48,347 bases of DNA from Bacteroidales bacterium (lineage in GTDB: Bacteria > Bacteroidota > Bacteroidia > Bacteroidales > Bacteroidaceae), in NCBI GenBank assembly GCA_022784065.1, contig JALFUO010000006.1, forward strand, positions 1 to 48,347. Direction: 5' to 3'. Shown piece by piece: positions 31,482 to 48,347 of the stretch. The notes beneath the pieces were generated by a model that was not told where the DNA came from, ran no database searches, and saw only the letters and a program-made list of their open reading frames with translations. The position numbers and the translations under genes are program-made. Position 1 is the first letter of the stretch; each line of letters starts with the position of its first letter.

Positions 31482-33404
31482 ATGGGAAAAATTATTGGTA
31501 TCGACTTAGGAACTACAAACTCTTGTGTTTCCGTATTTGAAGGCAACGAACCCGTTGTCATCGCCAACAGCGAAGGCAAGCGCACCACGCCCTCCGTTGT
31601 GGCATTCGTGAACGAAGGCGAGCGTAAGGTGGGCGACCCCGCCAAGCGCCAGGCTATCACAAACCCTCAGCGCACCATCTATTCTATTAAGCGCTTCATG
31701 GGCGAAACTTACGACCAGGTGCAGAAGGAAATCGCACGTATGCCTTATAAAGTGGTACGCGGCGACAACAACACGCCGCGCGTAGAGGTGGACGGCCGCC
31801 AGTACACGCCGCAGGAAATCTCTGCCATGATTCTTCAGAAGATGAAGAAGACCGCCGAGGACTACCTCGGACAGGAGGTGACCGAAGCAGTCATCACCGT
31901 GCCGGCATATTTCAGCGACTCGCAGCGTCAGGCCACGAAGGAAGCCGGACAGATTGCCGGTCTCGACGTGAAGCGCATCGTGAACGAACCTACCGCAGCA
32001 GCCCTTGCCTACGGTATCGACAAGGCAAACAAGGACATGAAGATTGCCGTGTTCGACCTCGGCGGCGGTACGTTCGATATCTCCATCCTCGAATTCGGCG
32101 GTGGCGTGTTTGAAGTGCTCTCCACCAACGGCGACACGCACCTCGGCGGCGACGACTTCGACCACGTGATCATCGATTGGCTCATTCAGGAGTTCAAGAA
32201 CGACGAGGGCGCAGACCTCTCTACCGATCCCATGGCCATGCAGCGCCTGAAAGAGGCAGCCGAAAAGGCAAAGATCGAACTCTCGTCTTCCACCTCCACC
32301 GAAATCAACTTGCCCTACATCATGCCCGTTGGCGGCGTGCCCAAGCACTTGGCAAAGACCTTGACCCGTGCTAAGTTTGAAGCGCTTGCACATGGTCTTA
32401 TCCAAGCCTGCAAGACCCCGTGCGAGGCAGCCCTCCGCGACGCAGGTCTTTCCACCAGCGACATCGATGAGGTGATCCTCGTGGGCGGTAGCACGCGAAT
32501 CCCCGCCGTGCAGCAGCTTGTGCAGGACTTCTTCGGCAAGGCTCCCTCAAAGGGCGTGAACCCCGACGAAGTGGTTGCCGTTGGTGCCAGCATTCAGGGC
32601 GCAATCCTTAACAAGGAAAGCGGCGTGGGCGACATCGTGCTCCTCGACGTTACGCCCCTTTCGATGGGTATCGAGACCCTCGGCGGCGTGATGACCAAGC
32701 TCATCGATGCCAACACCACCATCCCTTGCAAGAAGAGCCAAGTGTTCTCTACGGCAGAGGACAATCAGCCCGAAGTTACTATCCACGTGCTGCAAGGCGA
32801 GCGCCAGTTTGCCCGCGATAACAAGAGTATCGGCCGCTTCAACCTCGCCGGTATCGCACCTGCACGTCGCGGTGTACCTCAGATTGAGGTGACCTTCGAC
32901 ATCGACGCAAACGGTATCTTGAAAGTATCTGCCAAAGACAAGGCCACGGGTAAGGAACAAACCATCCGCATCGAAGCCAGCAGCGGCCTTTCGCAGGAAG
33001 AAATCGACCGTATGAAGGCAGAGGCAGAAGCCAACGCAGAGGCAGACAAGAAGGAGCGCGAGCGTATCGACAAGATCAACGCTGCCGACTCCATGATTTT
33101 CCAGACGGAGAACCAGCTCAAGGAGCTCGGCGACAAGCTTCCCGCAGATAAGAAGCCTGCCATCGAAGCCGCTCTCTCGAAGCTGAAAGATGCCCACAAG
33201 GCTCAGGATCTCGCAGCTATCGATGCTGCCACCGCTGAACTCAACAACGCTTGGCAGGCAGCCAGCGCACAGATGTACCAGCAGACTGGCGGTGCACAGC
33301 CCGGTCCCGACGCCGGTTTCCAAGGCAGCCAGCAGGCTGGCGGCGCACAGGGCGCAGGCAGCAACGACGATGTCCAAGAAGCCGACTTCGAGGAGGTCAA
33401 ATGA
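31482..33404 (+). CDS. dnaK: Chaperone protein DnaK (Hsp70)
   Basis: [38 protein letters not shown]-terminal EADFEEVK. Confidence 0.98.
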
Positions 33405-33437
33405 GACCGATAGGTAAAGACATAACAAAACACTATC

Positions 33438-33472
33438 AAATAGCGTGTAGCTCAATGAGTTACACGCTATTT
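33438..33472. terminator. 35-bp near-perfect palindrome after dnaK
   Basis: AAATAGCGTGTA-GCTCAATGAGT-TACACGCTATTT. Confidence 0.7.
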
Positions 33473-33627
33473 GCATTTTATAGGCTCATGTTTTCTATGT
33501 GCTTATCATTCCTTTTTTTACGGCTTTTTTGTTACATGTGTGGTACAGGACCAAATGGTAGATAAGGTTGAACATATACATACTTAAACATACATATAAG
33601 ATTCTGTTGAACTTAAAAGTAGAAAAC

Positions 33628-34188
33628 ATGCCAAATTTAGGAATTGAAATCAAAAGAAAGTGCGAGATCTGCGGAAATATCTTTGTTATCAAGACATTAG
33701 ACAGCATTTATTGCTCGCCAAAGTGTAGTAAGATTGCTAGTAAGCGTAAGAAGGACAAAGAGAAAAAAGAAGCATTATTTGCTGCATATGCTCAAACAGT
33801 TCCTGACATTCGTGAGTACCTTACAGCAAAGCAAGTTGTTGCTATTTATGGAATTGAGCGGAGTACGCTCTACCGTTTAGTCAGATTAGGTAAAATTCCT
33901 AGTATTAATCTAGGTGTACGTTTGACTCGTTTCAAGCGTTCAGAAATGGACAAACTGTTCCACTATCGTAGAGACCTCAAATTTGCGAAAGAGGTGACCA
34001 AGAAGAAACTCTACAGCCTCGAGCCAGAAGACTGCTACACCATCGGTGAGGTCTGTGAGAAATATCATATCAATGACAGTTCCGTATGGACACATGTAAG
34101 GAAGTATTCTATTCCCTCTCGTCAAATCGGAAACTTTGTCTATGTACCAAAGGAAGAAATTGATAAACTATATAAATCAGAACAGTAA
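33628..34188 (+). CDS. Helix-turn-helix/excisionase-like protein: N-terminal Cys zinc finger plus two HTH_17-like domains
   Basis: CEICGNIFVIKTLDSIYCSPKC; EYLTAKQVVAIYGIERSTLYRLVRLGKIPSINLGVRLTRF; CYTIGEVCEKYHINDSSVWTHVRKYSIPSRQIGNFVYVPKEEI. Confidence 0.75.
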   Translation: MPNLGIEIKRKCEICGNIFVIKTLDSIYCSPKCSKIASKRKKDKEKKEALFAAYAQTVPDIREYLTAKQVVAIYGIERSTLYRLVRLGKIPSINLGVRLTRFKRSEMDKLFHYRRDLKFAKEVTKKKLYSLEPEDCYTIGEVCEKYHINDSSVWTHVRKYSIPSRQIGNFVYVPKEEIDKLYKSEQ

Positions 34189-35478
34189 ATGAGAAAACCG
34201 CTATTGCACACAAAGGTCACGGTCAAACTCCGAAAGTCTGAGTACCGTGAAGAGTGGTACCTCGTAGTTGAGTCGTACCCTATACGCAAGCCTGATGGCG
34301 GTAAGCCTGGGCGTATAATTGAATCTGTAAACAGAATCATAACCACACCAATCTGGGACACCACAGCCATTACTGGTATTGATGCGGATGGCAACTATAA
34401 GTACAAGCCAAAGCGTGATACTAATGGTATCATCCAGTGTACTTCTCGCCTTGATAGGGAAGCATGCATTTATGCGGATAAAGTGCGTGCACTGCGTCAG
34501 CAAGAGTATGATACAGCTGTGGTTTATTCAGATAGAGAGCAGGAAATGATTGCTCAGAATGAGCGTATGGAGCAAGACTTTATCGCTTACTTCAATAGCA
34601 TTATATACAAAGTGCATCCTAATAGCTCAAATTCTATCATCGTGAATTGGACTCGTGTTGGCAAATTGCTCAGCATATTTTCTGAGGGGAAGCCTATCCC
34701 CTTTAGAAAAATCAATGTAAAACTACTTGAAGACCTGAAACTGTTTATGCTCACAGCTCCACAAGGCGGAAACAAGAAAGGCACACTGTCACAAAACTCA
34801 GCCGCCACCTACTTCTCAATCGTAAAGGCTGGTCTGCATCGTGCCTTCATCGACGAATACCTGACGGTGGATATTGCCGCTAAGGTAAAGGGCATACCAG
34901 AACTCAAAGTCAAGCGCGAGACACTGAGCCTTGAGGAAGCTGAGCTACTTGCTCAAACACCTTGTGAGAACGAAGTGTTGAAGCGTGCCTTTTTCTTTGC
35001 AATACTTACAGGCATACGGCTCTGCGATATTCATGAACTCACATGGGGCGAGATACAGAAGACGTCAACAGGCTGGCGTGTGGACTTCACTCAACGGAAG
35101 ACGCACGTTGTTGACTACCTGCCAATAAATGAACAGGCATACTCGCTCTGTGGAGAGCCAGGAGAACACGACCAGCAGATATTTGCAGGATTGACAGGCT
35201 CTTCATGGATATCACGTCCGCTGAAGAAATGGATAGCAGCTTCAGGAATCAAGAAGCATATTACCTTTCACTGTTCGCGTCACACATTCGCCACCCTTCA
35301 GTTGGAGAATGGCACGGATATATTTGTTGTAAAAGGTATGCTGGGTCATACAAACGTAAAGACCACTCAAATCTATGCTCATATAGTTGATAAGAGCAAA
35401 CGAAATGCTGCCGAGGCACTCCAGATAGATGGACTCAACACCTCGAATGAATCTCTTGATGACGCAAAAGTCATCTAA
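34189..35478 (+). CDS. Tyrosine-type site-specific integrase
   Basis: 429 aa; FAILTGIRLCDI (Arg I), HCSRHTFATLQL (HxxR), GMLGHTNVKTTQIYAHI (H...Y). Confidence 0.93.
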   Translation: MRKPLLHTKVTVKLRKSEYREEWYLVVESYPIRKPDGGKPGRIIESVNRIITTPIWDTTAITGIDADGNYKYKPKRDTNGIIQCTSRLDREACIYADKVRALRQQEYDTAVVYSDREQEMIAQNERMEQDFIAYFNSIIYKVHPNSSNSIIVNWTRVGKLLSIFSEGKPIPFRKINVKLLEDLKLFMLTAPQGGNKKGTLSQNSAATYFSIVKAGLHRAFIDEYLTVDIAAKVKGIPELKVKRETLSLEEAELLAQTPCENEVLKRAFFFAILTGIRLCDIHELTWGEIQKTSTGWRVDFTQRKTHVVDYLPINEQAYSLCGEPGEHDQQIFAGLTGSSWISRPLKKWIAASGIKKHITFHCSRHTFATLQLENGTDIFVVKGMLGHTNVKTTQIYAHIVDKSKRNAAEALQIDGLNTSNESLDDAKVI

Positions 35479-35503
35479 TGTTCTATAACGACATCCTTAC
35501 TTA

Positions 35504-35529
35504 GCCTCCGAGTTTTCGGAGGCTTTTTT
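35504..35529 (+). terminator. Terminator after the integrase
   Basis: GCCTCCGA-gttt-TCGGAGGC-TTTTTT. Confidence 0.9.
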
Positions 35530-35607
35530 ATGTCTTTATTATCTCCTCCATGTATGTTTTTATTGTCTTTGTTCATGTCTTCATAAAGCGCTGTTGTTCA
35601 GCTTAAT

Positions 35608-35635
35608 AGTATGATTTTCGCCGAAAAATCATACT
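35608..35635. other. Hairpin AGTATGATTTTCG/CGAAAAATCATACT in the integrase-HTH intergenic region
   Basis: 13-bp stem with one bulged A. Confidence 0.55.
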
Positions 35636-35767
35636 CAAATTATAAACTATTTTAATATCGGGGCTGCAATTTGTTGTTTTTATGGATGTTCGCGAAATAG
35701 TGAGTTCCTTTGCATCGCCAAACAACAAGAAAAGGCGCAAAATCAAGAAGTAAATACAACATAAACT

Positions 35768-36121
35768 ATGAACGAAAATTACACAGTTAATTCGCTGGAG
35801 GAGATGCCAAAAGCGTTGTCCTACCTTATTGAGAAAGTTGATAGCCTTCAGAAGACTGTCAACACGCTGCGGAACAAGCAGCAGGTTAGTGAATCACCTC
35901 GATGGATGAACATTGATGAGCTATGTGCTTACCATCCCAGCCATCCCAAGAAGCAGACTGTCTATGAATGGGTGTCAAAGAAGACTATCCCATATCATAA
36001 GATGACCAAGGGGCTTATGTTCCTTCAGTCTGAAATCGATGAATGGTTGAAGAGTGGTGCTCGAAAGACAGAAGAAGACCTCATGCGTGAGGCACAGGCA
36101 TTCATTAACTCTAAAAAGTAA
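35768..36121 (+). CDS. Helix-turn-helix domain protein (excisionase/regulator-like)
   Basis: WMNIDELCAYHPSHPKKQTVYEWVSKKTIPYHKMTKGLMFLQSEIDEWLKSG. Confidence 0.8.
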   Translation: MNENYTVNSLEEMPKALSYLIEKVDSLQKTVNTLRNKQQVSESPRWMNIDELCAYHPSHPKKQTVYEWVSKKTIPYHKMTKGLMFLQSEIDEWLKSGARKTEEDLMREAQAFINSKK

Positions 36122-36123
36122 AT

Positions 36124-36759
36124 GTGTGTATGATGTATGATAATGCTTCAGACTTTTGGGACGGAATGGAGGACTTACATGAGTTCTCCTTCTTCCGGAA
36201 ACCTATCCAGAACACAGAACCATATCGTGCTATCACGGTGGTTGATGTCTATCGCTATGTTGTTGGTCACTATGCGAAGCAACAAACCGAGACTCTACGC
36301 GCAATGCCCTCATCATCCGAAGCTAAAAAGTTCAAGGCTACTCATTTTGACTACTGCACATTCTCAGGATTGTTCCGCAGACGAAATGAAAAAGAACTGT
36401 TGCAACACTCAAGTTTAATGTGCCTGGATTTTGACCATGTCGGGAATCCTGACAAACTCAAAGAACAACTTTTGAAACATGAATACTTCGATACAGAACT
36501 GATGTTTACCAGTCCTTCAGGTGATGGTGTGAAATGGATAATTCCTATTGAACTAAAGGGATGGGAACATGCCCGTCTCTTCAAGGCGGTGGCAAATTGC
36601 ATCAAGTCAACAGGCTTACCTCCTGTGGATAACTCTGGAAGCGACGTGGCTCGTTCATGTTTCCTTCCCTATGACCCACAGGCTTATATTAATCCAAAAT
36701 ATGAAGAATATGTCAAAGAAAACATTTTCCGCCCAAGAATGGGAGAATGTCCCTTCTAA
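36124..36759 (+). CDS. BT4734/VirE N-terminal-like (primase-like) protein
   Basis: LMCLDFDHVGNPDKLKEQL...MFTSPSGDGVKWIIPIEL...DNSGSDVARSCFLPYDP. Confidence 0.8.
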   Translation: MCMMYDNASDFWDGMEDLHEFSFFRKPIQNTEPYRAITVVDVYRYVVGHYAKQQTETLRAMPSSSEAKKFKATHFDYCTFSGLFRRRNEKELLQHSSLMCLDFDHVGNPDKLKEQLLKHEYFDTELMFTSPSGDGVKWIIPIELKGWEHARLFKAVANCIKSTGLPPVDNSGSDVARSCFLPYDPQAYINPKYEEYVKENIFRPRMGECPF

Positions 36760-38515
36760 GCAAGAACCAGCATATTCCACCGTTCAGCCCCTCAACGAGA
36801 CAACCACAGATCTTCATGTGGAGGTAGAGAGAGTCGTTTCAGATATCGAGGCGAGAGGAATTGACATTGCTCCCCAATATGATACCTGGGTCAATATCGG
36901 CTTCGCATTATCAGAAGGTTTGGGTGAAGGAGGACGTGATTTTTTCCATCGTTTGAGCCGATTACATCCCGACTATGATTATTCCACCACTGATAAGCAG
37001 TTTTCTAATTGTCTGAATGGAAAAGGGACAGGTGTGACTATCGCATCCTTCTTTCATCATGCCGCTCTATCAGGCGTCAGATTAAGCCATTCTCCTGTTA
37101 CCATTTTACCAAATCACCAAAATGGCAAAACGGCAAAATGGGTGAAGCCCGCTAATGAATTGCCCCGGTTCCCAGAGACCGTTTTTGACGGTTTACCTCT
37201 CTTTTTACTGAAAGTAGTTAGTAATGCCATCTCTTCAGAGGACCGAGACATAATACTCTTGGGAGCCATAGGATGCCTATCCGTGTGTTTCGGCAATGTA
37301 TGTGGTGTTTACGACGAACGTGTAGTGTATTCAAATCTCTACCTGTTTGTTGTAGCAGATGCTGGAATGGGCAAAGGGGCCTTGTCCTTATGCAGGGAGT
37401 TAGTGGATCCTCTTAATCAACGGCTTCACGAACAATCAATGCAGATGGCTCTTGACTACAAGAGAGACTTGTCAGAGTATCAAAAGAACAAAGGGAAGAA
37501 TCCTGATGCTGCCGAACCCAATCCTCCTCCGCTAAAGACGTTGGTTGTCCCAGCAAACAGCAGCGCAAGTTCCTTGATGAGCATTCTTGCCGACAATGAT
37601 GGCAGAGGGCTTATCTTTGAAACCGAAGGAGATACGCTTAGTCAAACCCTCAAGTCTGAACATGGAAACTATTCAGATATGTTACGTAAGGGTTTTCATC
37701 ATGAACGAATCAGCATGAGCCGTCGCAAGGATAGAGAATACCTTGAGATTGACAATCCTCGTATATCTGTTGTCCTGGCTGGCACTCCCGAACAGGTTCG
37801 TCATCTCATACCAGATGCAGAGAACGGATTGCTCAGCAGATTCATATTCTACTTTATCCCCTTTCGTAGAGGAATACGCGATGTCTTTGCTACGGATGAC
37901 ATTGGTCGTTCAAAGCACGCCATATTCAAAACTATAGGAAACAAATTTCTACACTTGCTCGATAAATTCTTGGATCAAGGTTTCTTTGCCATCGTATTGC
38001 CGACGCATCTGCAACATCGCTTCGTAGAGTGGCTGGCCAGGCTCAATGACGAGTGTTGTGATGAAGTTGACAATGGTATGCAGGGAATCGTCCGAAGGCT
38101 GGGACTGATTGCCTTTCGCATGATGATGCTATTTACGGCAATTCGTGCGTTTGACAATCCCCATCCGCAATCCAGAGCCCCTGACGGAAGGATAATCCTG
38201 GAATGTACTGAAGAGGACTTCAATACGGTGTTGTGCTTATGTGAGATCTTGCTCTATCACTCCGTACACATTTACTTGAAGTTGCAACCGAAGAACGCTT
38301 TCAACATTCTTCCCGACAGAGAGTCTGGAGTCAATGCCCGTCGCTATGCGTTGTACCACAAACTCCCAGATGAGTTCGACAAATCCATTTACGACCGAAT
38401 CGTTTCAGAGATGAACGAGAACGCCAATACGGCTTCCAAATGGATAGACAAATTCATTCAGGACAAGCGACTCAAACGCACAAGCAAAGGCAATTATGTA
38501 AAAATCAACAATTGA
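36710..38515 (+). CDS. PriCT-like plus DUF3987 (helicase/primase-associated) protein
   Basis: MSKKTFSAQEWENVPSK start; IDIAPQYDTWVNIGFALSEGLGEGGRDFFHRLSRLHPDYD; DUF3987-like VVADAGMGKGALSLCRELVDPL and FETEGDTLSQTLK. Confidence 0.8.
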   Translation: MSKKTFSAQEWENVPSKQEPAYSTVQPLNETTTDLHVEVERVVSDIEARGIDIAPQYDTWVNIGFALSEGLGEGGRDFFHRLSRLHPDYDYSTTDKQFSNCLNGKGTGVTIASFFHHAALSGVRLSHSPVTILPNHQNGKTAKWVKPANELPRFPETVFDGLPLFLLKVVSNAISSEDRDIILLGAIGCLSVCFGNVCGVYDERVVYSNLYLFVVADAGMGKGALSLCRELVDPLNQRLHEQSMQMALDYKRDLSEYQKNKGKNPDAAEPNPPPLKTLVVPANSSASSLMSILADNDGRGLIFETEGDTLSQTLKSEHGNYSDMLRKGFHHERISMSRRKDREYLEIDNPRISVVLAGTPEQVRHLIPDAENGLLSRFIFYFIPFRRGIRDVFATDDIGRSKHAIFKTIGNKFLHLLDKFLDQGFFAIVLPTHLQHRFVEWLARLNDECCDEVDNGMQGIVRRLGLIAFRMMMLFTAIRAFDNPHPQSRAPDGRIILECTEEDFNTVLCLCEILLYHSVHIYLKLQPKNAFNILPDRESGVNARRYALYHKLPDEFDKSIYDRIVSEMNENANTASKWIDKFIQDKRLKRTSKGNYVKINN

Positions 38516-38558
38516 AGTAAAACTGGGCGAAAGCCCGCAAAAAACAAAAATTTAACAT

Positions 38559-39101
38559 ATGAGAAATCTCGTTATTCCTATTGGTCATCTTGTGATGTTG
38601 GCAGAACTTGATGATAAGGAAGCTGGGCAGATGGCAAAAGCCATTGCCTCGTATGCCAACGAGGGAACTGTCCCAACTTTCAGCAATGGTGCGCTCAAGG
38701 CTATCTTCTCTCTGTTTCGCTCTACAATAGAAGCACAACGTGAGTCTTCTGCTAAACGAAGCGAAATCAATACGGCCAATGCCATGAGCAAGAAGTCGCC
38801 TGCAAAGAAGAAGGTAGTTAAGAAACTTCCTACTGCTGATAGCAAATCGCAACAAATCGTAAACGAAGATGCAAACACATCAGAAGTAACAGACGAGTCG
38901 CTACCTCTTGATGCCATCGAAGCCATTTATCCCAAACTCGGTACTTATCGCAACGAATCGCTCTCAATTTGGGAAACCTTCAGCGAAGAGAAGAAGCGTA
39001 AAGCCATCGGCTTCGTTCAAGCTTACATCCGTCAAACACCTAATGCCATTGACCAGATGTATCTGAACAGATACCTGAAGGCTGAACCTTGGGGAAACTA
39101 A
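38559..39101 (+). CDS. Small replication-associated protein (DUF6291-like)
   Basis: MRNLVIPIGHLVMLAELDDKEAGQMAKAIASYANEG; sits between DUF3987 and relaxase genes. Confidence 0.55.
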   Translation: MRNLVIPIGHLVMLAELDDKEAGQMAKAIASYANEGTVPTFSNGALKAIFSLFRSTIEAQRESSAKRSEINTANAMSKKSPAKKKVVKKLPTADSKSQQIVNEDANTSEVTDESLPLDAIEAIYPKLGTYRNESLSIWETFSEEKKRKAIGFVQAYIRQTPNAIDQMYLNRYLKAEPWGN

Positions 39102-39111
39102 GCCGTAACGA

Positions 39112-39190
39112 GTCTGCTTGCAGACATTATAACCCTTTGGTGTAGCCTAATACACCAAGCTCACTTGGCTGTTAGGCTCTCCGAGGGTTT
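39112..39190. other. Cluster of nested inverted repeats upstream of the relaxase (oriT candidate)
   Basis: GTCTGC-tt-GCAGAC; TTGGTGTA-gcctaa-TACACCAA; AGCCTAA...TTAGGCT; AACCCT...AGGGTT. Confidence 0.45.
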
Positions 39191-39264
39191 TTGTCTGTCT
39201 GATGAAAGAGCAAGCTCTGGCAGTAATCAACAATAACCGTATAATCATTAATCAGTAGAATAAT

Positions 39265-41085
39265 ATGGGTAAAGGTAAAAAAGCCATGCTGGAAATCACA
39301 AAGATGAAGATGACTCCAGCACTAAGCGCAGAACATCAGCGAAAATGGGATGAGTCCCGATGGGAGTGTAAAATGGATGACCCAGAACGTAACTATGACA
39401 AGAGTCGTGCGCATCTCAACTTTGAAGTACGTAAGGGTGCGGTGATAGCACCTGTAGATAAATCTGTCTGCATCAAAGAAAAAGTAGATGCACGTATCGC
39501 AGAATGGAAAGCCGAGAGGCTTGCAGAAACAGGTGTAGAGCCCAAGGTTCGAAGCACACAGCATCTCTCGGTTTGTCTTGTTATGGGTGGAAATAGTGAA
39601 CGTATGAATGAACTTGCATTCGGAAATCAAGTGCTTCAGGAAAGAGGGAGCAACGCTCACATCAAACGGATGCCTGAGATAGAGCAGTTCGCTCTCGACA
39701 ATTATATGGCTCTGTCGGAAAGAGTCGGTGAGAAGAATATAATCTCATTTATCGTTCATTGTGACGAGAAGAACTGTCATATCCATGCAACCATTACTCC
39801 AATCTTGAAAGATGGACGCTTGTCGGCAAAGGATATGTTCGGAGGCAGTTCTTTGGTTGCAGCTCGCGACAAGATGCGTGAATGGCACGATTGGTATGCT
39901 GCCGTCAATGAGAAGTGGGGACTTGAACGTGGCGATAATATTCATGTCACTGGAGCCAAGCATCGCAATCTTGATGAATATCATCGCGAACTTAAATGCG
40001 AGATTCGCGACATGGAACGGACGAAAGCAAAAGAGCAGACTCTACTTGAATCCATCAAGGCAGATGTGAAAACGGCAACAACCCGAAAAGAAGGCCTGAT
40101 TTCTATGATTACAAACCTTGAGAATAGGCAGAAAGATGCATCAGGGAAACTTTCTTCTCTTGAAGAACGATTGGCAGCAGGTCTGGGGAACAAGGAAAAA
40201 ATCTTGGCACAGATTGAACTTTGTAAGGCATCACTATCGAAGTATGAGGCTGATCTTTCGGATAAGAATGCGAAGTTGGAGGTAGCAAAGCAAACACTCT
40301 CTTCCCTTACATCAGAGCAAGAGAAAGTTCAACTTGAATTGTCGCGCATGAATCTTCAAATAGAAAGACTTGACTCAGAAATCACAGAACTTGAATCTAA
40401 AAAAGAGAGCGTAGATGAAGGTAAGGCAACTTTACTCGGCATCTTCAACAAGGGAGATCTGGCTAAAGCCCGAAAGAAAATCTCAGACCAGGAGGATGAG
40501 ATTTCACAACTCAGGAAACAAGTCCAGGAACTTCAAACGGAGAAAGCAAAAGTGCTCAAAGATGCTCAAGCGGAGATTGACGAAGTTAAGAAGTCTCATG
40601 CTGAGCAGATGGCAACTTTGCAGCGTAGAGCACAAAAGGCAGAGGCAGAACGTGACAGTCTAAAACAAACCATCGAGCGACTACAGTTGAAGATTGCGGA
40701 ACTTGACAAGATAGCTCATCCAGAGCGTTATCGTCTATCTTCAGGTGCAGAACTTCTCCACTATTTTATTCCTAACCGCATGGATCCAACACTTCATATC
40801 TGGACAAAAGTTGGCAATGAGGAATACGATGCAGTGTCTTATAATGTTGGCTACTATGATGTAAAACGCTTTGATGATGGCGAGCTTACCATCCATGAAC
40901 TTGTCAATAGCGTATTTGATCCCGCAGAACAAGTCAATGCAAAACAGGCAGAACTCCTAGGTGCAGTCCTCATCGCAGCTATGGGTGGCCCAGCTCAAGC
41001 TCATGTAGGTACAGGAGGCGGTGGAAGTAATAGTCATTCTCCTTGGAATGACAAGGATAAGAAAAGAGGTGTTAAGCGAGGATGA
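39265..41085 (+). CDS. MobV-family relaxase (plasmid recombination/mobilization protein) with long coiled coil
   Basis: Pre/Mob-like NYDKSRAHLNFEV; SFIVHCDEKNCHIHATITPILKDGRLSAKDMFGG; coiled-coil EKVQLELSRMNLQIERLDSEITELE. Confidence 0.9.
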   Translation: MGKGKKAMLEITKMKMTPALSAEHQRKWDESRWECKMDDPERNYDKSRAHLNFEVRKGAVIAPVDKSVCIKEKVDARIAEWKAERLAETGVEPKVRSTQHLSVCLVMGGNSERMNELAFGNQVLQERGSNAHIKRMPEIEQFALDNYMALSERVGEKNIISFIVHCDEKNCHIHATITPILKDGRLSAKDMFGGSSLVAARDKMREWHDWYAAVNEKWGLERGDNIHVTGAKHRNLDEYHRELKCEIRDMERTKAKEQTLLESIKADVKTATTRKEGLISMITNLENRQKDASGKLSSLEERLAAGLGNKEKILAQIELCKASLSKYEADLSDKNAKLEVAKQTLSSLTSEQEKVQLELSRMNLQIERLDSEITELESKKESVDEGKATLLGIFNKGDLAKARKKISDQEDEISQLRKQVQELQTEKAKVLKDAQAEIDEVKKSHAEQMATLQRRAQKAEAERDSLKQTIERLQLKIAELDKIAHPERYRLSSGAELLHYFIPNRMDPTLHIWTKVGNEEYDAVSYNVGYYDVKRFDDGELTIHELVNSVFDPAEQVNAKQAELLGAVLIAAMGGPAQAHVGTGGGGSNSHSPWNDKDKKRGVKRG

Positions 41086-41202: not shown

Positions 41203-42270
41203 TTAGATTCTATCATACAAAGAATTGTATTCTTCCTCGCTTTGCATTTTCAGAACAAGAAAATCTACCCATGCTTGAGTATAACCATAGTTTTTGTTCA
41301 TCGTATCGTATATGCAGTATTTCTGGTTTGTTTTTTCTGGGTGTTCGGATCTGTTAGCAGGCCGTATTCCATATTTCTTCCAACATCTGGTATGTGTATC
41401 TTGATTAAAGTAGTCGACCATCTTGCCTCCTTTTTCGACTTTACCTTTCCCTAATCTCTTTTGAACCTTTGTAATGACCTCACCAGGTTTCATCAGATTC
41501 AGATTTGTGACATTGTGGATTTCGGTCTTTGTTTTTATAAGTGTCGTTAATCGCTCCACATTATGTTTCTGTTCATCAGTCAGTTTGTCATATGCAATGA
41601 ATTGAATAGGCATAGCATCTTGTGAATCGTGATTTGCAACTTGTATTAAAAATGCCTTAAATGAGTATTCACCACTTTTCAAGATGTCGGTAGAGATAGA
41701 AGAGCGATATTTCTCTATCCATTCATATATCTTTTTTGCTCCAGGATTATCAGCAACAGCTGTAACAATAGTTTTGTTTGAAGGATAAAGTTGTAATGCA
41801 AACGATAACGATTCACGAATACAATAGGATTCGCCAAACTCCTTTTCTACAATTCTGTCAAAGTTCATGAGCAATGATTGGCACTCGGCAAAGATTGTAG
41901 GATCAAGAGAAGGCATAAATTTATGTTCTAACTTGTTCCTGAGTGGAATAAAGAATTCTAGGTTTTTTCTAATGGCACTGCTTGTGTCATTTCCGAAATA
42001 GTTCTTGACACAAGTCTTTAACTCCCAAAATTGGTAATCTCCATCAACTTTTTTATAATGACGTTCGTCTTTTTCTTTATAATAAGGTTTTATTCCTCGC
42101 CTTATAAATATAGCATGAAATAAAGAAGTCCAAGCTATATTCATCAAGACTATGTATCCTCCAGAACGAAATTTAATAGCCGGTTTATTATAAGTCTCGA
42201 TAGCTAATAATGCAGAATCCAGCGCCTTTGCAAGGCAGCTTTTTACTATTTTGGGCAGTCCTCTTGACAT
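41203..42270 (-). CDS. DUF3644-like protein with HEPN-type RxxxxH motif
   Basis: ALLAIETYNKPAIKFRSGGYIVLMNIAWTSLFHAIFIRRGIKPYY; FFIPLRNKLEHKF (R-x4-H). Confidence 0.7.
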   Translation of the reverse strand: MSRGLPKIVKSCLAKALDSALLAIETYNKPAIKFRSGGYIVLMNIAWTSLFHAIFIRRGIKPYYKEKDERHYKKVDGDYQFWELKTCVKNYFGNDTSSAIRKNLEFFIPLRNKLEHKFMPSLDPTIFAECQSLLMNFDRIVEKEFGESYCIRESLSFALQLYPSNKTIVTAVADNPGAKKIYEWIEKYRSSISTDILKSGEYSFKAFLIQVANHDSQDAMPIQFIAYDKLTDEQKHNVERLTTLIKTKTEIHNVTNLNLMKPGEVITKVQKRLGKGKVEKGGKMVDYFNQDTHTRCWKKYGIRPANRSEHPEKTNQKYCIYDTMNKNYGYTQAWVDFLVLKMQSEEEYNSLYDRI

Positions 42271-42490: not shown

Positions 42491-45400
42491 TTAAGATTCA
42501 GACTTTTGTCGTTGCAGTTCTTGCCTGATTTTGTCTTTCAGAGAGTCAATGAACGATTCAAAAGTTTTGCCTTCATGCTGAATTACATCTTGCGAAACGA
42601 GAACTTGATAACCACCAGCTACATGCACCTTGTTATCATCATTCAGGGTAGCATCCTTCAAGCGTTCGTTAAGTTCCCCGATATTATCTAAAACTGCAAT
42701 TCTAGGCTTAACTTCTTCAAAACTCGGATATTCATGCATTCGCACACGATCCATATCATAGCCAACCATATCGGTTGCCAGCAAAGCATAATTATCACTA
42801 TTCTCGTATGACCGTCTATGCTGCATTGTACTCATCAGTACAGAACGATCGCTTGTCCATCTTGACTTGATTTCAAAGTAGTAGAAGTCATTTCCATTGA
42901 GACGTAATATCAAATCCTGACCGCCTTGCTCGTTAGTAATAGGTTTTGGGATTTCCACAATATTTTCGCCCAGTTCTTCGTTGAGTTCTTTCAGCAAAAT
43001 GTCCTCTACGTACTTGCCAAGTTCTTTCTTGAAATAGAAATCGTTAGCTTCTCTCGCTTCCTGATCAATAATTTCTTTGCTAATCCTTAGAATATGATCA
43101 AAATCTGGATTGTTCACAAGCTCAGCGATTGCCTTCAGTTTGGAGTCATCCTCAACTTTCATCAATGCGAAGATGCTGTCTTTCTTTGTCTGGCTTTGGA
43201 TGACAGAAAACATAATCTGACCTTTATTCCTGTCTATGTCACCAAATAATGCATGCCACAATTCACGTTCTATTCCGCCACTGGTAAGTTTTTCTATAAT
43301 CTCAACAATCAGTTTCTGATGCTCGTAAGATGTAATAGAATAGCCTTTCTTCTGTACTTCCTCCTCAATCTCTTTACATTGGCTGAATCCGTCAAGTACA
43401 TTCGTACCAACAAACCACTTGGAAAAATCCTCATCGACGATATCCTTCTTGATACTTGCAGATTTGTTTGTATCAGTCACCTTCTTGATAATGGTGTCGT
43501 AAATTTCCAAGGCACGTTCAGGTAGGGCTGGCGATTTTTTCTTCAACCACTCAGCATACTTGTAATTACCTTGCTGATCTGGATACACTTGATAGTACGA
43601 AAGGTAACTCTTAGTTTCAGAATAACTGTACACCAACTCAACCATCTGTTTTACCCATACGGCCTTTGTGGTCTTGTCACTCATCAATGTGAATTTGAAG
43701 AGCGAATCATATATCAACGTTGTATAGAATTGACGGACATCAAGGTCATACTTCTTATCCAATCGCACAACATTCTCTTGTAAGGTAATTCCATAGTAAT
43801 TAGCTATTATCGGCAGCAACTTGGCAGGAATCGCTTCGCTATCCTCTGGCAATAAAGACTTATAGAGTTTTAGTATGACAACAACCGCATCACCACTAAG
43901 TTTCTTAGCTTCATAACTGCCTGCGTTGAAGAGTCGTGTTAATTGAGGATTTTGTAAGTCATGTTGTTTGTTGGCCATAATCGACCCTCGTACTCCATTC
44001 TGCTCTATGTTATGATTGTTTATGTAATTTGTAATACTATCCTTGGCTCTTGCATAATCAAAAACAGTATCATTTACAATATCAAAGAAGTCTGCATGTA
44101 CAAAATTAGCTACATTATCTGCATCCATCAAAGCAAGAGCCTCCTTCACTACATTATCGAAAGCTACAGGTTTCACCAGAGGAGATTTCTTTTGGAGTTT
44201 TAGTACTTCGTTCGGTATCAAAGTGTAAGTGTCGAGTAGAGCATCCTGATTGTCAGAAATGTACTTATCAATCTTATGGAGCCAAGTGAGGTCAGTGGTC
44301 ACTATCGTTAGTGCTGGGATAGCAGCCGCCAGTGTTGTTATAGCGATCTGGTGTTCGTTCTTTTCTTCATCTCGATACCAACGATTGATTGTGTTGCTCC
44401 AATATACCATATCTTCCTTTTTTGGAACTATCCAAGTATTCACCTTCGCAAACAATCCATAAATAGCATCAAGGAGTTCTAAGTCCTCTTCACAAGCCTG
44501 GGCTAATGTCTCATCCAACACTTTTGTTTCACGGACATAATGTTTGGCAGAATCAGTACCATCTACAATGCACAGACTCTCGAACTTGTTTCGCCAAAAT
44601 GTTTGCAAAGTATTGTAGTATTCACCCAACTTGGCATCTGCTTGTTGTGTCTTGAATGACGCTCTGCACAAATACTTAGCATCACGCAAGGTCGTTACTT
44701 TCTTGTCAATGAACTGACAGATAAGTTTGTCCGCAAGGTCTATGATGTTTCGATTTGCTTCTGCTTGGTCATCGTTGTTCTGACCATTACCCACTAAACG
44801 CAAGCTATCACGGCTATCCTTATCGCATGTAAACAGAGACGAATGAAGCAAGTAGTTGAATCCCCATTCCTCTGTACCTAACAGAGGTAGATAAATGTAC
44901 ACTTGTGGCAAAGTCTTGTCGAAGCGTATAACACGCAACACGCCATCTTCGTCTTCTGTGATTGGCAAAGTTACAATCACCTTACTACGCTTGGGTTCAT
45001 CATCAGTTTCTTCATTACTGATTATACAATATATGTAATAGTCTTTATCGTCTTTACCTACGTTTGTGTTTTTTGTACGATGAACCTTTGTTTTATAAAT
45101 AATTCCATCGGTTAAATTTTCGACAAAGTCCATTTCAAGACTGTCTCGCACATATGTGACCATTTCATCATTCAACCTATCGTCGAAACAGATGCTCTCA
45201 ATATTAGGATTTATACTTAACACGAAAGGCACCATGTCTGGTGCATCCTTGAATGCACTCTCTGCATTCAGTCGTGCTTGTTTGCCTTCGTGCTGATAAC
45301 TGAACAGAGTATGTTCAAAAGGATTCTCTGTGGTTTGCGAGAAATCCTTTCCCCAGTCTTGGGTATCATTCCATTGATCTTTCAGTTTCCCTCGCATTAC

Positions 45401-45862
45401 TTCCTTGTCGGTTGCGGATCTGTCAATTTCAAAATCAGAAATCTTGTAATAACGAGGATATTCTTCAGACGTAAGAAGTGGTGCTGTCAGTTTGAATTTC
45501 AATCCGAACAGATGAGTTGTCAAGAATCCTGTTCCATACTGACCTACCTGCACATTGTTACTGCTGACCTTGGAACTTGTCTGCATGATAAGTGCCTCTA
45601 TGGTTTTATGGGTAAATGGTACGCCATCGTGCATGAAATCTAGAGAATTTTCATTGCGCGTAAAAACAATTTTAGCTCTTTTTCCATCACATACCACATC
45701 ACGTGCATTCTGCACTAACTCCCAAATGGCACGTACAGGACGGATGCCGCCATTGTTACCTATACCTGTTATAATATCACGTGCTGGTTTGCCCCACATC
45801 GTTTCGTCATGCGCTTCTTCTTGTGATTTTTGAACCGATGCGAGATACTCTTCTTGTGTCAT
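42491..45862 (-). CDS. Sacsin/HSP90-like GHKL ATPase with C-terminal DUF3883-like PD-(D/E)xK nuclease domain
   Basis: 1123 aa; ELVQNARDVV (N box), FMHDGVPF (G1), GQYGTGFLTTHLFG (G2); C-terminal GGQDLILRLNGNDFYYFEIKSRW. Confidence 0.8.
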   Translation of the reverse strand: MTQEEYLASVQKSQEEAHDETMWGKPARDIITGIGNNGGIRPVRAIWELVQNARDVVCDGKRAKIVFTRNENSLDFMHDGVPFTHKTIEALIMQTSSKVSSNNVQVGQYGTGFLTTHLFGLKFKLTAPLLTSEEYPRYYKISDFEIDRSATDKEVMRGKLKDQWNDTQDWGKDFSQTTENPFEHTLFSYQHEGKQARLNAESAFKDAPDMVPFVLSINPNIESICFDDRLNDEMVTYVRDSLEMDFVENLTDGIIYKTKVHRTKNTNVGKDDKDYYIYCIISNEETDDEPKRSKVIVTLPITEDEDGVLRVIRFDKTLPQVYIYLPLLGTEEWGFNYLLHSSLFTCDKDSRDSLRLVGNGQNNDDQAEANRNIIDLADKLICQFIDKKVTTLRDAKYLCRASFKTQQADAKLGEYYNTLQTFWRNKFESLCIVDGTDSAKHYVRETKVLDETLAQACEEDLELLDAIYGLFAKVNTWIVPKKEDMVYWSNTINRWYRDEEKNEHQIAITTLAAAIPALTIVTTDLTWLHKIDKYISDNQDALLDTYTLIPNEVLKLQKKSPLVKPVAFDNVVKEALALMDADNVANFVHADFFDIVNDTVFDYARAKDSITNYINNHNIEQNGVRGSIMANKQHDLQNPQLTRLFNAGSYEAKKLSGDAVVVILKLYKSLLPEDSEAIPAKLLPIIANYYGITLQENVVRLDKKYDLDVRQFYTTLIYDSLFKFTLMSDKTTKAVWVKQMVELVYSYSETKSYLSYYQVYPDQQGNYKYAEWLKKKSPALPERALEIYDTIIKKVTDTNKSASIKKDIVDEDFSKWFVGTNVLDGFSQCKEIEEEVQKKGYSITSYEHQKLIVEIIEKLTSGGIERELWHALFGDIDRNKGQIMFSVIQSQTKKDSIFALMKVEDDSKLKAIAELVNNPDFDHILRISKEIIDQEAREANDFYFKKELGKYVEDILLKELNEELGENIVEIPKPITNEQGGQDLILRLNGNDFYYFEIKSRWTSDRSVLMSTMQHRRSYENSDNYALLATDMVGYDMDRVRMHEYPSFEEVKPRIAVLDNIGELNERLKDATLNDDNKVHVAGGYQVLVSQDVIQHEGKTFESFIDSLKDKIRQELQRQKSES

Positions 45863-45954: not shown

Positions 45955-47334
45955 TTAATTCTTGTCTCCAAACAGCAGCTTCAACTGTTTGTCAAAGTCA
46001 CTCATAATCTCACGGTCTTGAATGACACGGAACTTGTCATATTCAGTGAGTGCCTTTTCTACCGCCTGTTCGTGAGTCACGCGCCCAGCATCTGGAAGCA
46101 AAGGACGGTTGTTCAAATCCATATAGCGCTGTAGTAGAGCCGCCCAGTCTGCCATTGTCATCAAGATATGATCTTCTGCTCGTTGTTCTGCAATGTCTAT
46201 AAAGGCATTGCTCAACCTGTTCAACGAATCAACTTCCTTTTCGCTGAGATAGTTCTTGGCCACAGTAACATCTGATTTCACAACTCTTCCATCTGGTGCA
46301 TTTTTCCATGTTGTCAATCCCATGTGAGGGCGTTCGGCATCCGCACGGTCATAGATAATCTCGGCAGCAGTCTGTTTTGTTACCGCATAATGCATCATGT
46401 TCTGCACGGTCTTGAAGAACAACTGTGTTTCCTCAGAATCCTTATCATAGTCGGAACTACACTCACTATATATGTCTGTAATCTTCTGATAATAACGTCG
46501 CTCACTGATTCGTATCTCGCGGATGCGGTCAAGCAAATCATCAAAATAGTCTGCTCCGAATACATTCTTTCCCTTCAGGCGCTCATCATCCAACACAAAG
46601 CCTTTGGTAAGGTATTCTTTCAAGACTTGTGTTGCCCAGATACGGAACTGAGTAGCCTCGTAGCTATTCACACGATAACCTACGGCAATGACCACATCGA
46701 GGTTATACATCATCACCTCGCCAAACCATTTGTCCGAAGGTATCCTAATTTTTCGGATAGTGTCGGACAAATGTATTTCTCCGCTTTCATCAATTTGTTT
46801 AAGATGATAATTAACTGTACGAACGTCGATACCAAATAACTCTGCCATTCTCTGTTGTGAAAGCCAGAAAGTATTGGTGTCGAAGATGACTTGAACCTGT
46901 ACTTTTCCATGTCCACTTCTATACATGAGTACTGAGGACTCCATGCTTCTCACGGCAACATCGGGAGTCATAGTCGCACTGAAGTACTGCTGTGCTACCT
47001 TCACCATCTCTTTCTTTTGGTCGGCATTCATAGCCACAGCCATACAAGCTGCACGTGAAAGGCGAATGCTCGTCACCTCTCTGACTGCAGCATTGCCCAA
47101 CTCAGCCATCTCTGTTATCTCCACAAAATGCTCTCCAAGATGGTAACCCTTCTGTGAAGTCCATGCCTGTGCTTTGGCTATGACACGTTCAAAGTTCCAG
47201 TACTTGCCATAGCCCATCACTCTCGCCAACTTGCGTGAGTTCCACCATTCTTTGCCATCAGCATCAATCTCTCTCAACTGCTCGAAAGGAGATTGAAGCT
47301 CTGGGATAATGTTTGTATCTTGTATATTACTCAT
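45955..47334 (-). CDS. RhuM-family protein with N-terminal DinD-like domain
   Basis: N-term SPFEQLREIDADGKEWWNSRKLARVMGYGKYWNFERVIAKA...VREVTSIRLSRAACMAVAMN; C-term RhuM core VIFDTNTFWLSQQRMAELFGIDVRTVNYHLKQI...VGYRVNSYEATQFRIWATQVLKEYLTKGF. Confidence 0.85.
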   Translation of the reverse strand: MSNIQDTNIIPELQSPFEQLREIDADGKEWWNSRKLARVMGYGKYWNFERVIAKAQAWTSQKGYHLGEHFVEITEMAELGNAAVREVTSIRLSRAACMAVAMNADQKKEMVKVAQQYFSATMTPDVAVRSMESSVLMYRSGHGKVQVQVIFDTNTFWLSQQRMAELFGIDVRTVNYHLKQIDESGEIHLSDTIRKIRIPSDKWFGEVMMYNLDVVIAVGYRVNSYEATQFRIWATQVLKEYLTKGFVLDDERLKGKNVFGADYFDDLLDRIREIRISERRYYQKITDIYSECSSDYDKDSEETQLFFKTVQNMMHYAVTKQTAAEIIYDRADAERPHMGLTTWKNAPDGRVVKSDVTVAKNYLSEKEVDSLNRLSNAFIDIAEQRAEDHILMTMADWAALLQRYMDLNNRPLLPDAGRVTHEQAVEKALTEYDKFRVIQDREIMSDFDKQLKLLFGDKN

Positions 47335-48347
47335 TTTTGTCTATATTACTTCCTTGTTGAATAGAATCTTCAATGATTTCCCAATAGCCATTTCTTTTAC
47401 CATTCACTCTACGTAGAATGTTCTTCTCTTGCAACGCTATGGTAATTGATTTGACTGTTCGCTCAGATTTTCCAATTTCAGCAGCAATCTCTTTTTGGGT
47501 AGCATATGGATTCTTTTGTACTATGCGAAGTAGAGCGACTTCTTCCAAAGTGCAATTTTTGCACTTTGGGGGTAATTCTTCACCACCTTTTGCACTTTGA
47601 ACTTCGTGATTTGCACTTTGGGATATGGTTTCGTTCTCAACTTTGTTCCAATCAACGTGCATTATCCTGTTCCTAAGGTCATGTTCTTCTCCAAGCAACA
47701 TACTGCGAAAGAATCTCTCCAAGTACTCTGTTGTTTCTGTGATGCCATTTGTCAAATCACTATAGTTGGCACGAACGAGCGCATTTCGGAAATACCATGA
47801 GTTTTCAGCAAAGACATCATTGACCACATTGAAGCCCAATGTACGTAGGTATTTAATCATAAATACGGCAGTCGTTCGTGTGTTGCCTTCGCAAAACGCA
47901 TGAACTTGCCATAGATTAGCACAAAAACGGGTAAGATGATGAATAGCATCGTCAATATTCATGTTAACATAACTAAACTCGCGTTCCTGCCCCATATCAT
48001 AATTCAATGTGTCGCTGATAGTATCTGCACTGGCATAATACACGGTCTTGCCACCAAGTACCCACTCGTTCTTCGTAATATTATAGTCACGAATGCGACC
48101 TGCTAACTTATAGATGCCATCAAACAACCGGCGATGTATAGAAATCAACTGAGCAGGAGTAAATGAGAACGTCTTTTCCTCTATCAACTCCGTGATACGT
48201 GCAGCCACCTTGTCTGCCTCTTCCGTTCGGTCATTCTCAACAACCTTTCGTCCAGATGCAGACTTGTAGTATGAGTCGATAAGTTGCTTTGCTTCATTGA
48301 TGCTGATATCACCCTCGATATGCCGTTTGGCAGTATCAAACAGATAT
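47327..48347 (-). CDS. Fic-family protein with C-terminal winged helix; 5' end outside the window
   Basis: QVHAFCEGNTRTTAVFMIKYLR Fic motif; C-term TQKEIAAEIGKSERTVKSITIALQEKNILRR; the reading frame stays open through the window edge (...AKRHIEGDISINEAKQLIDSYYKSASGRKVVENDRTEEADKVAARITELIEEK). Confidence 0.88.
   Translation of the reverse strand, partial: YLFDTAKRHIEGDISINEAKQLIDSYYKSASGRKVVENDRTEEADKVAARITELIEEKTFSFTPAQLISIHRRLFDGIYKLAGRIRDYNITKNEWVLGGKTVYYASADTISDTLNYDMGQEREFSYVNMNIDDAIHHLTRFCANLWQVHAFCEGNTRTTAVFMIKYLRTLGFNVVNDVFAENSWYFRNALVRANYSDLTNGITETTEYLERFFRSMLLGEEHDLRNRIMHVDWNKVENETISQSANHEVQSAKGGEELPPKCKNCTLEEVALLRIVQKNPYATQKEIAAEIGKSERTVKSITIALQEKNILRRVNGKRNGYWEIIEDSIQQGSNIDKNE

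Follow-up and report, generated by a model that had tools for sequence, protein, structure and literature searches.

The question raised by this locus is whether a large ATPase fused to a nuclease-like C-terminus, encoded in a 48,347-nucleotide stretch of Bacteroidales DNA (the window), is an unrecognised effector or a further member of a known defence family, and how such a protein may work. A preliminary description, made from the letters alone, had placed an open reading frame of 1123 aa at 42491-45862. The ORF calls reproduce its position and length and supply the strand, which had been left unstated: the gene lies on the minus strand and has an ATG start. All of the motifs quoted for it were found in the translation, namely ELVQNARDVV (residues 48-57), HDGVPF (78-83), GQYGTGFLTTHLFG (107-120) and GGQDLILRLNGNDFYYFEIKSRW (980-1002), and judged by sequence they are not chance occurrences. 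The nearest relative (locus L030, 93% identity) comes from a Bacteroidaceae MAG from water-deer rectum, and the dN/dS ratio of 0.11 between the two genes (dS 0.28, dN 0.032) indicates purifying selection on the protein. A promoter scan gave fewer sites than were obtained in shuffled sequences. An AlphaFold model of the full protein (74 rows, mean pLDDT 85.7) was used together with the other evidence named below to delimit the following parts.

42491..45862, minus strand: tmtA-like gene, 1123 aa, with GHKL ATPase, transducer, helical middle and PD-(D/E)xK nuclease-fold domain (ORF, PADLOC, NCBIfam, AlphaFold)
45323..45862, minus strand: GHKL (Hsp90-like) ATPase domain, approximately residues 1-180 (conservation, AlphaFold model, Foldseek)
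44774..45322, minus strand: S5-like transducer, approximately residues 181-363 (strand-rich in the model; Foldseek alignment; R351)
43058..44773, minus strand: helical middle, approximately residues 364-935 (conservation, AlphaFold model)
42494..43057, minus strand: PD-(D/E)xK domain (NOV_C-like), residues 936-1123, 188 aa (separate model, Foldseek, NOV_C)

For family membership, the PADLOC model PDLC03967 for TmtA matches the window protein with 705.7 bits and E=3.5e-212 (residues 10-1113 against positions 4-1061 of the 1063 in the model), and the relatives likewise match PADLOC TmtA. PADLOC represents TmtA by several divergent models, the others of which cover just the ATPase region of the window protein, and Tiamat membership is assigned here through the PADLOC profile. 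We take TmtA to be the gene of the single-gene Tiamat defence system. On this profile evidence the window protein is a member of the catalogued anti-phage family Tiamat/TmtA and not an unrecognised effector; it thus adds a further member to a known kind. The NCBIfam model for the sacsin N-terminal ATP-binding domain (NF047352) also matches, at residues 44-123 (E=3e-16), and Pfam alone is weak, with NOV_C reaching E=0.022 on the whole protein. The family is sparse yet broad: a sample drawn from the whole phylum had TmtA matches in 6 of 396 genomes and one from the order in 9 of 393, the window's own genome being counted in both. A collection scan for relatives, which used GHKL-motif patterns (parts of the N-box and G2), gave 80 loci, nearly all in Bacteroidota; the architecture is common to about 80 relatives. 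No TmtA relatives were found in the phage genomes and viral contigs searched. Two loci merit separate mention: in L020 (9743-12826) a tmtA relative is split into ORFs of 250 and 452 aa and is probably a pseudogene, and on the Priestia megaterium plasmid pFDU301B (L111, 5872-6378) a 507-base CDS annotated as an ATP-binding protein encodes a GHKL domain of this type standing alone.

For the N-terminal part, the proposed GHKL fold is borne out by the AlphaFold model and by Foldseek, in which the N-terminal half retrieved Hsp90 chains first, followed by MORC3, MORC4 and MutL, with GRP94 also among the matches. The matches to Hsp90, GRP94 and MORC3 have Foldseek probabilities of 0.99-1.00 (1.00 for Hsp90/MORC) and E-values down to 6e-6, consistent with the Bergerat/GHKL fold. 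The protein had been likened to MutL/MORC-type systems, and this likeness holds for the structure but not for the family, as the MORC and MutL family models gave no match to the window protein. The motifs comprise an N-box (E48/N52/D55), a variant G1 (H78-x-G80) and G2 (G107-x2-G110-T-G112). Among 81 aligned relatives, E48, N52, D55, H78, G80, G107, G110 and G112 show no substitution in any protein with a residue at that position (79/79 for E48, N52, G107, G110 and G112), although RAIWELVQ and VGQYGTGF owe part of their conservation to the search itself, since the scan patterns held parts of the N-box and G2, whereas D55, H78, R351 and the C-terminal residues were not selected for. The canonical GHKL G1 motif is DxGxG, the Asp of which contacts adenine in classical GHKL enzymes. 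This motif is absent here, with His78 replacing the Asp in 79/79 proteins as a family-wide oddity, and nucleotide use may therefore differ; the fold and the other motifs still place the protein in the GHKL superfamily despite the G1 His. The lid (approximately residues 95-105) is flexible and includes, as expected, a low-confidence loop at 99-101 in the AlphaFold model.

The region between the two terminal domains had been regarded as unassigned, which now applies to its larger part only. The Foldseek alignments pass beyond the ATPase into the Hsp90 middle domain, and approximately residues 181-363 are therefore read as an S5-like transducer. This segment carries R351, invariant in 81/81 proteins and a candidate gamma-phosphate-sensing finger. 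The helical middle (approximately residues 364-935), in which W495 is invariant, gave no match in family searches and PDB sequence searches, and a sequence search of the solved structures in PDB with the full protein and its profile gave no match either.

For the C-terminal part, a PD-(D/E)xK-like domain in a DUF3883/NO VEIN-like context had been suggested, and the PD-(D/E)xK assignment is supported. Residues 936-1123, modelled separately (pLDDT 87.0, pTM 0.85), form a helix - strand - strand - strand - helix - strand order, that is an alpha-beta-beta-beta-alpha-beta core (model elements H2-29, E49-53, E56-66, E73-76, H77-85 and E90-96). The residues of the core are E953 - D983 - E997-x-K999 - Q1014, of which E953 belongs to the first helix and Q1014 to the second, D983 comes right before strand 984-988, and the strand after that bears E997 and K999. 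D983 is conserved in 81/81 proteins and E997, K999 and Q1014 in 80/81, the sole exception being L023, which has another C-terminus; E953 is replaced by Gln in three proteins (L086, L106, L108). The top 50 Foldseek matches are mostly PD-(D/E)xK proteins, including Hjc resolvases, EcoRV, PvuII, DpnI, HincII and the SPARDA effector, and Hjc 2eo0 was matched with a Foldseek probability of 1.00 and a TM of 0.63 by target; the E-values are modest (best 6e-3) and the hit list is consistently PD-(D/E)xK. In Pfam counts taken from the C-terminal alignment of members, NOV_C matches 73 of 74 C-termini scanned singly (E<=0.01, best 8e-10) and HSDR_N, the type I restriction nuclease domain, 5 of 74. For the window protein itself the NOV_C (PF13020) scores of 15.2 and 18.1 bits are under the gathering cut-off of 22.1, and the L020 protein is over it (28.9 bits). 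A comparison of the C-terminal profile with solved structures by sequence returned one match only, which is meaningless, and DUF4263 (the Shedu nuclease) had no match in the window protein or in any member. These features suggest that the C-terminal domain is a putative nuclease with a near-absolutely constrained catalytic set.

The C-termini differ among some relatives. The TmtA ATPase and middle are joined to a 'VVRPSD...ELWIDN' tail in L023, L026, L112 and L115 and to a Cys/His-rich tail in L125, and the L123 protein, which is of the PDLC03968 type, ends in a NOV_C-like GYD...VEVK segment. A shared GHKL/middle region with differing C-termini would fit a sensor/motor with exchangeable effectors.

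With respect to genomic context, the window tmtA gene is carried as cargo by a mobilisable element that has inserted downstream of dnaK; the genes of this region are as follows.

31482-33404: dnaK, with the element inserted downstream
33568-34188: HTH gene (Pfam)
34189-35478, plus strand: tyrosine integrase (Pfam)
35768-36121, plus strand: HTH gene (Pfam)
36124-38515, plus strand: primase/DUF3987 (Pfam)
38559-39101, plus strand: DUF6291 (Pfam)
39265-41085, plus strand: Mob_Pre relaxase (Pfam)
34189..41085, plus strand: mobile backbone as a whole
41203..42270, minus strand: DUF3644 (HEPN) gene with an EC042_2821 REase-like C-terminus (PADLOC PDC-S19)
45955..47334, minus strand: Bro-N + RhuM gene (PADLOC PDC-S05)
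47327..48346, minus strand: Fic + winged-helix gene, with the 5' end past the contig (PADLOC PDC-S72)

The cargo beyond the backbone is thus ordered Fic, RhuM, tmtA and DUF3644 on the minus strand, and all three co-cargo genes match PADLOC candidate families. A RhuM homologue adjoins tmtA elsewhere only in L030 (7900-14900), where tmtA is directly downstream of dnaK, the RhuM gene is on its other side and DUF3644 is missing. The position of tmtA after dnaK in both genomes indicates that the site has been used more than once and that its cargo has been reshuffled. A dnaK-linked insertion hotspot is suggested by these two genomes with their differing gene order (window 31482-34188; L030 7900-14900). 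The right end of the element was not found: the contig stops at 48347, a search of the same genome for a flank taken from L030 was negative, and the sequence on the dnaK side gave no second copy.

It is rather probable that TmtA is a single-gene anti-phage protein on a mobilisable element and that it acts, most likely, as an ATP-gated nuclease. This reading rests on the domain architecture, the conserved catalytic sets, the profile membership and the evolutionary independence from neighbouring genes established in this analysis, and from these we infer that the protein dimerises under ATP, that its substrate is DNA, what kind of trigger it answers to and that the window copy defends against phage. 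On binding ATP, the GHKL domain would close a clamp formed by two subunits, in the manner of Hsp90, MutL and MORC, and R351 in the transducer would sense the gamma-phosphate. A cue associated with phage, which may be DNA passing through the clamp, would be recognised by the large middle, and the closed clamp would then release or position the PD-(D/E)xK domain, leading to DNA cleavage. As no conserved methylase or antitoxin is found beside tmtA, self-protection would more likely be conformational than modification-based. The RhuM, Fic and DUF3644 genes on the mobile element constitute a defence-type context and were counted in favour of the anti-phage role, as was the recurrent presence of tmtA in type I R-M operons, where the gap between hsdS and hsdR is known to house defence genes. 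Neither of the outcomes named beforehand as refuting the domain assignments, a missing GHKL fold or a missing PD-(D/E)xK fold, occurred; the preliminary description was correct for the two domains and, in essence, for the predicted function. A generalisation of this mechanism is tentative: Tiamat-family proteins could be ATP-clamped DNA nucleases in which a GHKL clamp loads onto DNA of the phage, or else onto a structure that is branched or replicating, and fires the PD-(D/E)xK domain without a modification-based self/non-self mark, with related clamps carrying other effectors. The nearest solved fold is that of the Hjc Holliday-junction resolvase.

Abortive infection is an alternative that appears unlikely, though by no means negligible. 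The Hsp90/sacsin-like ATPase would sense a phage protein in a chaperone-like manner and the nuclease would degrade nucleic acid of host and phage without distinction, so that the cell dies. The sacsin-type N-terminal domain and the Hsp90 chaperones as best fold matches point in this direction, as does the need for conformational self-protection where no methylase or antitoxin is conserved next to the gene. However, the sequence does not separate host killing from selective cleavage, and DNA-acting MORC and topoisomerase ATPases also match the fold.

A further possibility is that TmtA is an accessory subunit of type I restriction-modification (R-M) systems, working with HsdM, HsdS and HsdR. At least two hsd genes (Pfam-confirmed) were found near tmtA in 21 of 76 loci, and in 17 of 75 loci tmtA is placed between hsdS/hsdM and hsdR, the slot between hsdS and hsdR being its usual place in these operons; these are raw counts. 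Nine loci show an overlap of 7-16 bases between the stop of tmtA and the start of hsdR. However, most tmtA copies, including that of the window, are outside hsd operons, and the hsdS-hsdR gap is a known embedding hotspot for defence genes such as DarTG2 (PMC12255303). Co-evolution was assessed by correlating protein distances over the 13 loci with full genes, where HsdM-HsdR (rho 0.94, p=0.001) and HsdS-HsdR (rho 0.64) stand against TmtA-HsdR (rho 0.25, p=0.06) and TmtA-HsdM (rho 0.29). Near-identical hsd operons also hold different TmtAs; for instance the HsdR proteins of L048 and L108 are 87% identical while their TmtAs are dissimilar. When the hsd label was mapped on the tmtA tree (a quick tree with some long branches), it changed 12 times, 10 of the changes being forced by well-supported branches, and the association therefore appears to have been gained or lost repeatedly. 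A joint role with the Hsd proteins is thus very unlikely, and the subunit candidate was ruled out by the distance correlation. Since TmtA does not co-evolve with HsdR, tmtA is, on this sequence comparison, an exchangeable passenger of type I R-M operons that probably acts autonomously, as a single-gene system. None of the neighbour clusters occurs at every tmtA locus, the largest being the hsd genes in 20 loci. The earlier proposal of this one protein as a possible effector core agrees with neighbours that are not conserved and a family catalogued as a single-gene system.

Several other arrangements were noted around these operons. The loci with the stop/start overlap are L041, L043, L048, L061, L073, L074, L087, L092 and L108, and translational coupling without co-evolution is possible there. 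The same R-M operons also contain a gene for a GmrSD_N (DUF262) protein of some 605 aa, located between tmtA and hsdR in L086, L100 and L106 and directly 3' of hsdR in L032; it looks like a further embedded passenger. In L076 (622-3093), an 823-aa protein unites an N-6 DNA methylase with HATPase_c at its C-terminus, and a type I R-M locus that contains tmtA is nearby.

Within the window, the next gene on the same strand encodes the DUF3644 protein, which has an RNKLEH sequence (Rx4H motif, residues 111-116) and belongs to the HEPN superfamily (PMC3710099). The two genes might form one system, with DNA sensing or cutting by TmtA and growth arrest brought about by the HEPN RNase. The pair recurs in only one other locus of about 75 (L092, with one 195-aa gene in between), the two window genes are separated by 220 bp and the closest relative of the window gene has no DUF3644 neighbour. 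TmtA and DUF3644 as a conserved pair were ruled out on the basis of that single other locus, and a joint system is likewise very unlikely. Least probable is a non-catalytic DNA- or RNA-binding relative of PD-(D/E)xK enzymes at the C-terminus, with the protein acting via its ATPase alone, since, even though we know of no demonstrated nuclease activity for NO VEIN C-terminal domains, every member with the domain retains D983, E997, K999 and Q1014, a degree of conservation that would be surprising in an inactive enzyme.

Among known systems, Tiamat (TmtA; PDLC03967) resembles the window protein in its full-length profile match, its single gene and its GHKL-type ATPase. The mechanism of Tiamat is listed as unknown in a 2026 review (PMC12926258). 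The sequence evidence suggests how this poorly understood family may work and gives a concrete, testable mechanism; if the ATP-clamped DNA nuclease reading is true, it would supply a mechanism for an unresolved defence system. It also pinpoints putative catalytic residues in the N-terminal and the C-terminal domain, and it sets TmtA apart from the type I R-M systems whose operons often embed its gene. NO VEIN/sacsin-type proteins have in common with TmtA the sacsin N-terminal ATP-binding domain (NF047352) and a NOV_C-like C-terminus; TmtA, however, is bacterial and mobile, and the DnaJ, HEPN and ubiquitin-like parts of sacsin were not found in it. Metagenome contigs called Tiamat in plant samples were plant DNA (PMC12409356). 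The bacterial MutL/MORC-type R-M ATPases (PMC2292703) have GHKL and S5 domains as in TmtA, in line with the Foldseek matches to MORC3, MORC4 and MutL, but the fused nuclease domain and the helical middle, as well as the lack of a family model match, set TmtA apart from them. The GHKL-type Shedu protein VcSduA has the same N-terminal GHKL ATPase, clamp-like middle and C-terminal PD-(D/E)xK domain; it is active against phages, a clamp-like dimer has been modelled for it, and its two activities were probed with an E27A variant and with nuclease variants (PMC12137116). The nuclease of VcSduA is of the DUF4263 (Shedu) type, whereas the nuclease domain of TmtA matches NOV_C and not DUF4263. By analogy, VcSduA is the closest experimental precedent for the ATP-gated clamp model, and TmtA would be, next to it, the second large family that appears to couple a GHKL switch to a PD-(D/E)xK domain.
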